A stretch of DNA of 64,000 nt from a virus: IMG/VR virus record IMGVR_UViG_3300017917_001996, positions 186,001-250,000 of that record; one strand, given 5' to 3'. Below are positions 29,263-32,758 of the stretch, in pieces. Each line of letters opens with the position of its first letter. The first letter of the stretch is position 1. Under the pieces are notes generated by a model. That model was given only the letters and a program-made list of their open reading frames with translations, had not been told where the DNA came from and searched no databases. A program made the position numbers and the translations under genes.

Positions 29263-29280
29263 TTTTTTTACCTTACTGGT

Positions 29281-29288
29281 GATAAATA
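29281..29288 (+). promoter_or_regulatory. Late promoter, leaderless geometry
   Basis: GATAAATA then five bases then ATG at 29294. This supports 29294, not the GTG at 29279, as the start. Confidence 0.7.
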
Positions 29289-29293
29289 AACAT

Positions 29294-29677
29294 ATGAATA
29301 ATTACTATGTTTATGCTTATCTCAGAGAAGATGGAACTCCTTACTATATTGGTAAAGGCAATAAAAATCGAGCATGGACTAAAGGTAAAGGGGAAATAGG
29401 AAAACCTAAGGACCTTAACAGAATAATAATTGTCGAAAAGAATTTAACACTAACTGGTAGTTTAGCAATCGAAAGAAGATTAATCAGATGGTATGGTAGA
29501 AAAGATATAGGAACTGGAATACTTCGAAACCGAACCGACGGTGGTGATGGAGGAAAAGGCGCTAATGCCGGCAATAAATTATCAGAAAAAATAAAAAGAA
29601 AATATCATTGTCACACAAAGGCAAAAAGAGAACCCCTATGTCTGAAGAATCAAAAAAGAAACTTTCAGAATCATTAA
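29294..29677 (+). CDS. GIY-YIG homing endonuclease, catalytic half (frameshifted)
   Basis: 127 residues. The GIY-YIG catalytic domain is at the N-terminus: [11 protein letters not shown], then YYIGKG, with RAW and [11 protein letters not shown] helices. After residue about 100 ([10 protein letters not shown]) the frame leaves the conserved sequence and soon stops. The continuation is in the -1 frame from about 29600, so a one-base deletion in the A-rich tract at 29586-29602 has broken the gene. There is no classical slippery heptamer, so programmed frameshifting is unlikely. Confidence 0.75.
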
Positions 29678-30060
29678 AGGGCAAAAACCTTGGAAAACAA
29701 AGATCAATTGAAACAAAACTTAAAATGTCTCTAACTCTCAAAGGAAGAAAAAGAGAACCGATGTCGGAAGAGACAAAGAAAAAATTAAGTGAGGCAAATT
29801 TGGGTAAACATATAGAACCATTTACAGAAGAGCATAAACAAAAAATATCAAATGCTCTTAAAGGAAAGCCTAAAAAACGAGAATCTGTAGAAAAACAAAG
29901 ACAAAAAATAATCGGAAGAAAACCAAGTATAAGCGAAAGAGAAGCATATTTAAATGCTTTAGAAAAAGGAAAAACTGTGTGCGAACACTGTAAAAAGATT
30001 TTTACATTGGGTAACTATCGTAGATGGCACGGTGACAAATGTAAGTTAAATCAAATTTAA
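29608..30060 (+). CDS. GIY-YIG homing endonuclease, DNA-binding half (frameshifted)
   Basis: 150 residues from an internal ATT/ATG region; not likely to be a free gene. Four NUMOD3 repeats (for example [45 protein letters not shown]) are followed by a zinc-finger-like end CEHCKK...NYRRWHG..CK. It continues the protein begun at 29294. The whole would be about 255 residues, a normal length for SegA-F type enzymes. It sits just before the terminase gene, a usual homing target zone. Confidence 0.7.
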
Positions 30061-30086: not shown

Positions 30087-31001
30087 ATGAGCGCTGAAAA
30101 TTCTCTAATTAAAAGACCGTATTCATCAGAATCCTATTCTCTCGAACAGTTACAGGAATTTGCTCGATGTGCTGACCCAATCAACGGGCCCAGGCATTTC
30201 ATGAGTAATTACTTTTATATACAGCATCCTATCAAGGGCAGAATGAACTATGTGCCCTTTGAATATCAAGATAGACTAATTGAAACATATCATAATTATA
30301 GATTCAGTATTAGTCTAATGCCTCGACAAACAGGCAAGACAACCAGCGCCGCAGGATATTTATTGTGGTATGCAATGTTTAATCCTGATAGTACTATTCT
30401 TATTGCTGCACACAAATACACAGGCGCTCAGGAAATTATGCAGCGTATTCGTTATGCTTATGAATTGTGTCCTGACTTTATTCGTGCAGGTTGTACCAGT
30501 TATAACAAGGGCAGTATTGAATTTGAAAATGGGTCGCGTATTGTGTCGCAGACAACCACAGAAACAACAGGTCGTGGTATGTCTATTACACTCCTATACT
30601 GTGACGAGTTTGCATTCGTAAGACCTACCATTGCTACAGAATTCTGGACTTCAATTTCGCCTACACTAAGCACTGGTGGTAAGGCTATTATTACTAGTAC
30701 CCCTAACAGTGACGAAGATCAATTTGCCTTGATCTGGAAAGGCAGTCAAAAGTGTATCGACGAGTTTGGCAATAAAACTGAACTTGGTGTAAATGGGTTT
30801 AAAGGTTACCAAGCCAATTGGTGGGAGCATCCTGACCGTGACGAAAAGTGGAAAGCTGAAGAAATAGGTCGTATTGGCGAAGAACGTTTTCGACGTGAGC
30901 ACGGGTGTTTATGTGGTTCATCTCTTATTAAAATAAAACATCCTAATGGTCTAATAGAAGAAGTTACTATAAATGCTTTAAAGTCTCTATTAAGTTCGTA
31001 A
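30087..31001 (+). CDS. 17: Large terminase N-terminal half fused to split-intein N fragment
   Basis: 304 residues: 273 of TerL N-extein plus 31 of intein. The ATPase shows Walker A RQTGKT (80-85), Walker B LLYCDE (169-174) and coupling motif TSTPN (203-207). The extein ends RFRREHG; the intein starts at Cys 274 with CLCGSSLIKI, a normal block A, and stops at residue 304. The downstream gene carries the matching intein C fragment followed by CEFLIF, which rejoins the gp17 sequence exactly (EHG-CEF). The product must be trans-spliced to give a 517-residue terminase that pumps and cuts DNA at the portal. Confidence 0.9.
   Translation: MSAENSLIKRPYSSESYSLEQLQEFARCADPINGPRHFMSNYFYIQHPIKGRMNYVPFEYQDRLIETYHNYRFSISLMPRQTGKTTSAAGYLLWYAMFNPDSTILIAAHKYTGAQEIMQRIRYAYELCPDFIRAGCTSYNKGSIEFENGSRIVSQTTTETTGRGMSITLLYCDEFAFVRPTIATEFWTSISPTLSTGGKAIITSTPNSDEDQFALIWKGSQKCIDEFGNKTELGVNGFKGYQANWWEHPDRDEKWKAEEIGRIGEERFRREHGCLCGSSLIKIKHPNGLIEEVTINALKSLLSS
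30906..30998 (+). other. Split intein, N fragment (31 aa)
   Basis: Begins with the nucleophile Cys (TGT at 30906). CLCGSSLI fits block A of inteins (consensus CL-x-G-x-x-LI). It ends at the stop after only 31 residues, before block B, so the split point is atypically early. The known precedent is the AceL-TerL intein (25 + 104 residues), also in a terminase. Confidence 0.88.
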
Positions 31002-31016
31002 TTTTTGATGAAACGG

Positions 31017-31024
31017 TATAAATA
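31017..31024 (+). promoter_or_regulatory. Consensus late promoter inside the split terminase, leaderless geometry
   Basis: Exact TATAAATA, five bases, then the ATG at 31030. It can drive the HNH gene and the TerL C-terminal gene independently of the N-terminal gene. Confidence 0.8.
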
Positions 31025-31029
31025 ATAAT

Positions 31030-31713
31030 ATGAGAAAGCATAAACATCATATTATTCCTAAGCATGCCGGTGGAACCAATGATCCATCAAATCTAATAGA
31101 ATTGACTATAGAGGAACATGCAGAAGCTCATCGTTTGTTATATGAAACTTACGGTAGGTGGCAAGATCGTGTAGCCTGGCTAAGTTTGTCTGGCATAATG
31201 ACAAACCAAGAAAGGATATATGAGATTTTAAAAAATTCAAATCCCGGCGGGTATAAGCATTCTGAAGAAATAAAAAAACAACTTTCTGAAATGCGTAAAG
31301 GTAATAAAAATCCAATGTTTGGAAAAGTTGCTGCTAATAGTGGAATTAAACGACCTGGTATCGGTGGCCGGAAAAAAGGGTCAGGATGGTCTGACGCAGA
31401 AAGATTAAAACAATTAGAAGTTCGATCTCAACCGGGTTATTATGATTTTACTAAAGATCCGGAGAGGAATAAAAAAATAAGTCAGGCAACTAAAGGTAGA
31501 AAAGGTTCGGCATTAGGAAAAAAATGGTTTCATAATAACGAAATTGAAACATATTCATTTAGTTGTCCTATAGGCTTTATACCTGGTAGGTTACCTGGCA
31601 GAAAATCAAACAAGGAAGGACTGCTCTGGTACAATAACGGAATTGTTAATAAGCAATTTAAAGAAGGACAACAAGTAGAAGGATTTACTCGTGGAAGAAT
31701 TAATAAAAAATAA
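31030..31713 (+). CDS. HNH homing endonuclease nested in the split intein
   Basis: 227 residues. HNH motif at the N-terminus: KHHIIPKHAGGTNDPSNLIELT followed by HAEAH. NUMOD3-like repeats follow (KHSEEIKKQLSEMRKG, NKNPMFGK, KKISQATKG), and the C-terminus is basic. It is free-standing: stop codons separate it from both intein halves. Its 3' end overlaps the GTG start of the TerL C-terminal gene by 23 bases. It probably cuts intein-less gene 17 and spreads the whole cassette. Confidence 0.85.
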   Translation: MRKHKHHIIPKHAGGTNDPSNLIELTIEEHAEAHRLLYETYGRWQDRVAWLSLSGIMTNQERIYEILKNSNPGGYKHSEEIKKQLSEMRKGNKNPMFGKVAANSGIKRPGIGGRKKGSGWSDAERLKQLEVRSQPGYYDFTKDPERNKKISQATKGRKGSALGKKWFHNNEIETYSFSCPIGFIPGRLPGRKSNKEGLLWYNNGIVNKQFKEGQQVEGFTRGRINKK

Positions 31714-32023
31714 CATCGGCCTGCAAATTTTAACAGACACAGGCTGGTCTGATTTTTCAGGACTTCTAGTAAGGGGCAGAAAGAAAACGGTACAAATACA
31801 AACGACAAATAAAAATGTTATATGTACTCTAGATCATAAATTTTTTAAACCTGATTTTACATTTGTTGAAGCACAACAATTAAGACCTCGACAAAAAATT
31901 CTAACAATTAATGGAACAGAACAAGTAGTATCAATTAAGATTCTTGACGAAAGAGAAGTATACGACTTATTTCATGTCTCGAAAAATTATAGATTTTATG
32001 CAAACGGTATACTTGCTAAAAAT
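31691..32023 (+). other. Split intein, C fragment (111 aa)
   Basis: Contains TLDH (block B) near residue 46, LFHV (block F) near 93 and terminal AKN before Cys+1 at 32024. There is no endonuclease domain inside; the mobile function is supplied by the separate HNH gene. Confidence 0.88.
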
Positions 32024-32758
32024 TGCGAATTCTTAATTTTCGACGAAACACTGATCAATGCTTCTACCTTATTAGAAATGCAGGGCACAGACCCAATCGA
32101 AAAACAAGGACAAGTACGCTGGTATCATAAACCCAAACGTGGAAGTACCTATGTGGTTGCCTTAGATCCAAGTCTTGGTACAGGTGGCGATGCTGCTGCT
32201 ATACAAGTTGTTGAACTGCCAGCATGTAAGCAAGTTGCCGAGTGGCAACACAATAAAACAGATATACGTGGGCAAATTCGAGTACTTAAAGAAATCTGTA
32301 ATTATCTTTACGAAGAAATTGGAACACAAAACGACATCTACTACAGTGTTGAGAACAACACCTTAGGAGAAGCTGCCCTAATTGCTATCAGTGAAGTTGG
32401 AGAAGAAAACATACGTGGATCTTTTGCCAGTGAACCGCGTAATGGTCAGTCTCGTAAATATAGAAGAGGTTTTACAACTACAAACAAATCAAAACTAGCA
32501 GCCTGTGCTAAGTTAAAGAGCTTGATAGAAAGCAAGAAGATGACTATATCTAGCTCTAATTTAATTTCGGAACTTAAGAACTTTGTATCTCACGGCAGCT
32601 CGTTTGAAGCTAAAATTGGCGAAACTGACGACCTAGTAATGGCAATGATCCTGGTTATCCGTGTGATACAGTATCTACAGAGCTTTGATCCCACTCTAGA
32701 CAGTTATGTTAAGGATCACGACGAGTTCATAGAACCCATGCCCTTTATTTTGATGTAA
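31691..32758 (+). CDS. 17: Split-intein C fragment fused to large terminase C-terminal half
   Basis: 355 residues from a GTG, with AAGGA seven bases upstream, overlapping the end of the HNH gene. Residues 1-111 are the intein C part: block B TLDH, block F YDLFHV and block G YANGILAKN, ending at Asn 111. The usual penultimate His is Lys here. The C-extein starts at Cys 112 (CEFLIFDETLINAS) and holds the RNase H-like nuclease: VALDPSLGTGGD (first Asp), YSVENN (Glu) and ETDDLVMAM (last Asp). After trans-splicing it completes gp17. Confidence 0.9.
   Translation: MEELIKNNIGLQILTDTGWSDFSGLLVRGRKKTVQIQTTNKNVICTLDHKFFKPDFTFVEAQQLRPRQKILTINGTEQVVSIKILDEREVYDLFHVSKNYRFYANGILAKNCEFLIFDETLINASTLLEMQGTDPIEKQGQVRWYHKPKRGSTYVVALDPSLGTGGDAAAIQVVELPACKQVAEWQHNKTDIRGQIRVLKEICNYLYEEIGTQNDIYYSVENNTLGEAALIAISEVGEENIRGSFASEPRNGQSRKYRRGFTTTNKSKLAACAKLKSLIESKKMTISSSNLISELKNFVSHGSSFEAKIGETDDLVMAMILVIRVIQYLQSFDPTLDSYVKDHDEFIEPMPFILM

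Follow-up and report, generated by a model that had tools for sequence, protein, structure and literature searches.

A fractured large terminase gene with an atypically split intein and an intervening HNH gene, and the states of its site among relatives

Here we present the large terminase (TerL) locus of a 64,000-nucleotide stretch of viral DNA (the window; bases 186001-250000 of the 250,289-bp virus record IMGVR_UViG_3300017917_001996), in which terL is broken into two genes by an intein split near its N-terminus, with a free-standing gene of the HNH homing-endonuclease type between the halves. Very probably, a terL intein was split by the HNH gene, the two products are trans-spliced to a TerL of 517 amino acids (aa), and homing by the HNH protein spreads the cassette. 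The original prediction, made from the letters of the window, had proposed that the TerL intein is split in the atypical manner and that an HNH gene stands free between its halves, and this is upheld by the anatomy of the locus, the empty sites of relatives, the splice residues, selection and a structural model of the intein of a related locus. Two features had escaped it: a copied piece of terL together with a series of states at the same site, and relatives whose TerL is encoded in more than two pieces.

Anatomy of the divided terminase gene

All features of the locus lie on the + strand. The N-half is an open reading frame (ORF) of 304 aa (30087-31001), ending REHG^CLCGSSLIKIKHPNGLIEEVTINALKSLLSS and a stop codon. 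Its first 273 residues (30087..30905) are the N-extein with the ATPase domain, recognized by Walker A PRQTGKTT, Walker B LLYCDEF and a match to Pfam Terminase_6N (4e-16); the last 31, from Cys1 to LLSS (30906..31001 with the stop codon), are the N-intein, delimited by ORF reading and by comparison with the N-inteins of about 27 loci. The C-half (31691-32758) starts with GTG and opens with a 111-aa C-intein (31691..32023) containing block B TLDH, block F VYDLF and block G ILAKN, with matches in the PDB to gp41-1 and VidaL. After ILAKN follows ^CEFLIF, the beginning of the C-extein (32024..32758 with the stop codon; Cys+1, 244 aa), an RNase H-like nuclease domain matching Pfam Terminase_6C (3.2e-9). 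Thus ORF reading bears out the coordinates and residues first claimed for both halves, and 273+244 aa gives the predicted 517-residue spliced product.

The N-extein aligns with residues 94-354 of T4 gp17 (PDB 3ezk, E 9e-32) and the C-extein matches PDB 3c6a (E 3.5e-15), so that, with the two Pfam families, the ATPase and RNase H-like nuclease domains of a T4-type TerL are both accounted for. The ATPase domain of gp17 ends at residue 360, and the alignment puts the break about six residues upstream of that end. The further claim that the ATPase and nuclease domains are made separately is therefore correct to within a few residues.

The HNH/NUMOD3 gene between the halves (31030..31713, 227 aa) has an intact HNH motif. 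It starts 28 nt downstream of the N-half stop, and its 3' end overlaps the start of the C-half by 23 nt; direct reading places an AAGGA ribosome-binding-like sequence (31679..31683) 7 nt upstream of the C-half GTG. The three genes are co-directional and so tightly packed that they could be read from one message, and the 28-nt spacing and 23-nt overlap would allow them to be co-expressed.

Empty sites, selection and the intein itself

Relatives were gathered by using the C-half, the C-intein and the HNH protein to search viral contigs, and a few annotated phages were added; this yielded 113 distinct related TerL loci having the C-extein start (designated here by L numbers). The C-intein is absent from 69 of these, and in 69/69 the exteins abut with a gap of exactly 0 at the inferred junction, so that the clean rejoining of the exteins originally claimed is not a product of chance. 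The C-intein is present at the same position in 44 of the 113, about 30 of which have the full order N-extein, N-intein, HNH, C-intein, C-extein in divergent sequences. Among 13 fully ordered loci, median dN/dS over unsaturated pairs was 0.10 for the N-extein, 0.22 for the N-intein, 0.12 for the HNH gene, 0.21 for the C-intein and 0.17 for the C-extein, demonstrating purifying selection on both intein pieces as well as on the HNH gene and the exteins. Neither an artefact nor a relic in decay would be expected to show exactly empty sites, a shared gene order and ratios of this kind.

Four residues are invariant across the clade: Cys1, the block-B His, the C-terminal Asn and Cys+1. In the window they appear as C1, TLDH, N111 and C+1, in agreement with the intein pattern of Cys/Ser1, block-B TxxH, Asn and Cys/Ser/Thr+1. 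The best PDB sequence match of the window C-intein is gp41-1 (1.5e-7), followed by VidaL (7.8e-7) and, weakly, CatC (0.036), while a PDB search with the 31-aa N-intein alone gave no match, and a Pfam search for further inteins in the same genome found none. In the relative L092 both intein parts lie within one contiguous 693-aa frame, and the AlphaFold model of this intein (pLDDT 89.7) has VidaL as its first Foldseek match (E 4e-11, TM 0.79/0.85), other inteins being lower. The model has a helix at residues 23-32 followed by a disordered segment at 35-42, where the window split falls; it thus gives a Hint fold and puts the split of the window at one of the two positions, after beta-2 or after alpha-1, that mark atypically split inteins. 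A split after helix alpha-1 is the S2 position of the AceL and GOS TerL inteins (PMC13014065). The N-intein is 31 aa in the window and 30-37 aa across the clade; its shortness had been put forward as novel, but known N-fragments of atypically split inteins measure 15-37 aa (PMC13014065, PMC11766414).

Some observations weigh against the explanation favoured here. The majority of the relatives are metagenome contigs; the Pfam Intein_splicing match on the C-half is below the model cut-off; and the AlphaFold model of the window's own C-half was poor (pLDDT 61) and was not used. Also, the penultimate residue is not His: the Lys reported earlier is correct for the window and those closest to it, whereas other members of the clade have Ser. 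A penultimate His is usual in inteins, although not obligatory.

The mechanism that we propose begins with an intein entering a jumbo-phage terL at the codon that corresponds to residue 353/354 of T4 gp17, shortly ahead of the boundary between the ATPase and nuclease domains. An HNH homing endonuclease gene (HEG) would then have settled in the loop that follows helix alpha-1 of the intein, leaving an N piece of 31 aa and a C piece of 111 aa, which would bind one another and fold into a Hint domain. Splicing would proceed through a thioester at Cys1, transfer to Cys+1 and cyclisation of the Asn, releasing the full-length 517-aa TerL, and the HNH protein would cut the empty terL of co-infecting phages, so that the cassette spreads. 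We infer splicing, cutting and homing from the features described; that packaging depends on trans-splicing is likewise an inference, though a well-supported one.

States of the site, terminases in several pieces and the HNH gene

The same site is found in many conditions. It is empty, with an HNH gene adjoining terL, in L123 (downstream) and in L136, L137 and L139 (upstream), and L135 has a contiguous mini-intein with the HNH gene just upstream of terL. The split with an HNH gene is seen in the window and about 29 others. In L166 the break holds a chimera of a GIY-YIG nuclease with the C-terminal region known from the HNH protein, and in L179/L180 a different nuclease; the N-half is fused in frame to an HNH tail in L150/L151, and L152/L154 are split with the HNH gene mostly gone. 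The intein is contiguous again in L092, which retains the HNH tail out of frame (FKENTQPEEFNRGRISKK) and thus descends from the split state; that of L169 is contiguous too. The locus family displays most of a cycle: empty, split with a HEG, HEG swapped or degraded, halves re-fused.

Vibrio phage Va1 (L009 238-3655) also has its TerL split at this position, and there the C-intein forms an in-frame fusion with a DUF559-type nuclease; nucleases of this type occur in L009 and L024.

The distribution of the intein on the TerL tree is patchy. Its presence changes at least 10 times (gains or losses), 6 of the changes being forced by well-supported branches, counts that are rough because the tree was quickly made and has long branches. 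L013 has the cassette although it falls within a clade of empty sites, and up to the junction the DNA of its exteins shows 86-89% identity to that of its empty relatives; no co-conversion tract was seen around the insertion at 30-bp resolution. It is possible, but rather unlikely, that splicing works while the HNH gene is no longer mobile and the cassette is inherited vertically, an explanation compatible with the splicing part of our mechanism. HNH and extein pairwise distances do correlate (0.58-0.66) and the intein loci do cluster on the tree, but the place of L013 among empty-site relatives and the repeated, partly forced, changes argue for mobility.

Some relatives appear to build TerL from three or four pieces. 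L013 has it in three ORFs, with a second split intein at Walker B (LIYC^...HSHQ^CDEFAF) and another ORF between those halves, in addition to the window's site. L166 (30-5095, on a single 8-kb contig) has it in four ORFs with three split-intein sites, at Walker A, at Walker B and at the window site, and two different nuclease-like genes; in L024 the break is at Walker A. In Salicola phage SCTP-2, which has been cultured and whose genome is complete, TerL is spread over three unlinked genes (429356-429748(-), 256428-257321(+) and 215993-218077(-); loci L194 1057-1449, L193 829-1722 and L004 2501-4585), and their complementary intein ends form two split-intein junctions, GK^CVDY... / ...LSHN^TAVA at Walker A and LLYC^LDGE... 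/ ...NVSQ^CDEF at Walker B. Its third piece additionally carries a contiguous intein, and all three were labelled 'terminase large subunit' by the depositors. We found no published report of a multi-piece SCTP-2 TerL in the accessible literature, which mostly leaves out subscription journals.

These breaks bear on the idea of a two-piece terminase that works without splicing, in which the ATPase and nuclease halves associate and the intein pieces are dead tails. The cut about six residues upstream of the gp17 ATPase/nuclease boundary would suit it, and PMC10448857, citing Friedrich 2007, describes a HEG-split NrdA that functions in the form of separate peptides. We nevertheless regard it as improbable: the splice residues are invariant, both intein pieces are under purifying selection, the same intein is contiguous in L092 and L169, where a failure of splicing would wreck TerL, and the breaks inside Walker A (L024, L166, SCTP-2) are incompatible with an unspliced ATPase. 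It is hard to imagine the SCTP-2 enzyme, broken at Walker A, functioning unspliced.

The HNH ORF matches Pfam NUMOD3 (4.7e-9) and HNH (1.7e-4) and PHROG 655, homing endonuclease (2e-19), combining the HNH motif with a NUMOD DNA-binding motif as HNH homing endonucleases do. It is also distributed with the patchiness of such genes, with 69 empty and 44 occupied alleles and L013 inside an empty clade. Three free-standing HNH paralogs are encoded in the same genome, L095 3535-4086 (+) and 5245-5799 (-) and L099 1099-1704 (-); all three are intergenic, none being inside another split gene. The same HNH family also occurs next to the C-intein of a gp41 helicase, though on the other strand, in L141 (3393-4159; ..SHN^SYIP..) and L144 (3399-4109; ..SHN^SYVP..).

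Domestication of the HNH gene for packaging, as with the HNH proteins beside HK97-like phage terminases, in place of a homing function, seems even less probable. Its seat within terL, the purifying selection on it and the precedent of an HNH protein working with a terminase (PMC10448857) would fit. However, it is absent from the intein-free relatives examined, save a few with a flanking copy, gives way to a GIY-YIG chimera in L166 and to another nuclease in L179, is degraded or lost in L150-L152 and L092, and has free-standing paralogs elsewhere in the same genome. That the locus is an assembly or sequencing artefact concealing one continuous gene with an in-frame intein has a negligible chance, metagenome-derived though the source contig is, given about 30 independent contigs of the same order and divergent sequence with all parts under selection.

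Only 5 nt separate the end of the late-promoter-like octamer TATAAATA (31017..31024) from the HNH ATG, and transcription starting at this element would give an almost leaderless message. The octamer is not enriched in itself (3 found vs 4.8 expected in the window). TAAATA, by comparison, stands upstream of 12 of the 68 window ORFs vs 1.0 expected (for example, ORF starts 19967, 24142 and 38024), and is likely a phage late-promoter element. The claim that the HNH gene has its own late promoter is thus plausible through the TAAATA enrichment, and not through the octamer.

Just before this element, the segment 30995-31014 (TTCGTAATTTTTGATGAAAC; frame F-V-I-F-D-E-T) is identical at 17 of 20 positions to the start of the C-extein coding sequence at 32030-32049 (TTCTTAATTTTCGACGAAAC), and the pattern with up to 2 mismatches occurs only at these two sites in the entire 250,289-bp record. 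The N-intein stop codon is this extein copy read out of frame. By junction reading, an EF[IV]I[FY]DE-like copy is present in about 23 of 27 split loci, but not in L119-L122; in several, such as L101 and L113, the copy shares the reading frame of the HNH start codon, and the intact relative L123, with its HNH gene just downstream of terL, has a similar leader. A stretch of terL would therefore seem to travel with the HEG and is probably half of its target, and the copy suggests that the HEG arrived already carrying that half, an order of events to be taken as tentative. For the clade as a whole, we lean towards a course in which a contiguous intein is broken by a HEG that brings along a piece of its target, one HEG takes the place of another at the break, and deletions give a HEG-free split or re-fusion. 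Repeated at three TerL sites, this would have led to terminases of up to four polypeptides, joined by as many as three natural inteins of the atypically split kind (L166), and to that of SCTP-2 from three unlinked genes.

Immediately upstream of terL, at 29279-30060 (+), a GIY-YIG-like ORF (29279-29677) is continued in another frame by a NUMOD3-repeat ORF (29608-30060), probably a second, frameshifted homing endonuclease gene.

Comparison with known systems

The locus family bears on the origin of natural split inteins: most intermediates occur at a single site (the empty site, a contiguous intein with a HEG next to terL, the HEG inside, swapped or half-deleted, the split without a HEG, the re-fused form), so that the steps become directly testable. 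The clade is also a source of about 30 new split inteins with a short N part, and intein pairs taken from different TerL sites in one phage should be mutually orthogonal, a property needed in protein ligation technology.

In the 'fractured genes' of Dassa et al. 2009, a split intein reportedly divides a conserved phage gene and an endonuclease gene stands free between the halves, a Vsr-like endonuclease being said to occur in about half of the described loci and not to be obligatory. The window likewise has a split intein with a free-standing endonuclease gene between its halves, but here the endonuclease is HNH/NUMOD3 and not Vsr-like, the host gene is terL, an extein copy is present, and there are re-fused and multi-split relatives. 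The split PolB intein of MIJ3, also from a jumbo phage and with an HNH homing endonuclease gene between its halves, differs in its PolB host and its canonical late split, with blocks A to N4 before the split and F and G after it (PMC6892783). gp41-1, the closest PDB sequence match of the window C-intein, whose type of C-intein adjoins the same HNH family in L141 and L144, has a helicase host and a canonical split. VidaL is the best structural match and shares the short N-intein, but is only about 20% identical and split earlier, at 16 aa, after beta-2 (PMC13014065).

A further comparison is with AceL-TerL (N+C lengths 25+104, the equally early split originally cited), GOS-TerL (37+115) and the consensus Cat (30+104) (PMC11766414, PMC13014065). 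With these the window shares a short N-intein followed by a long C-intein, the S2 split after alpha-1, Cys+1 and a TerL host; it departs from them in its lengths (31+111), its distant sequence (CatC E 0.036), the penultimate Lys/Ser and the HNH gene between the halves. Both TerL inteins with an atypical split and fractured genes that contain a HEG are known (PMC11766414, PMC13014065, PMC6892783), so the window locus is of a known kind, and the novelty first claimed for its short N fragment and its HEG is weaker than was stated. The best reading is a new clade of atypically split TerL inteins, one bearing an HNH gene, in a 'fractured gene'; as far as we have checked, this clade, the copy of the extein start, the succession of states at a single site and the natural multi-split terminases are new.
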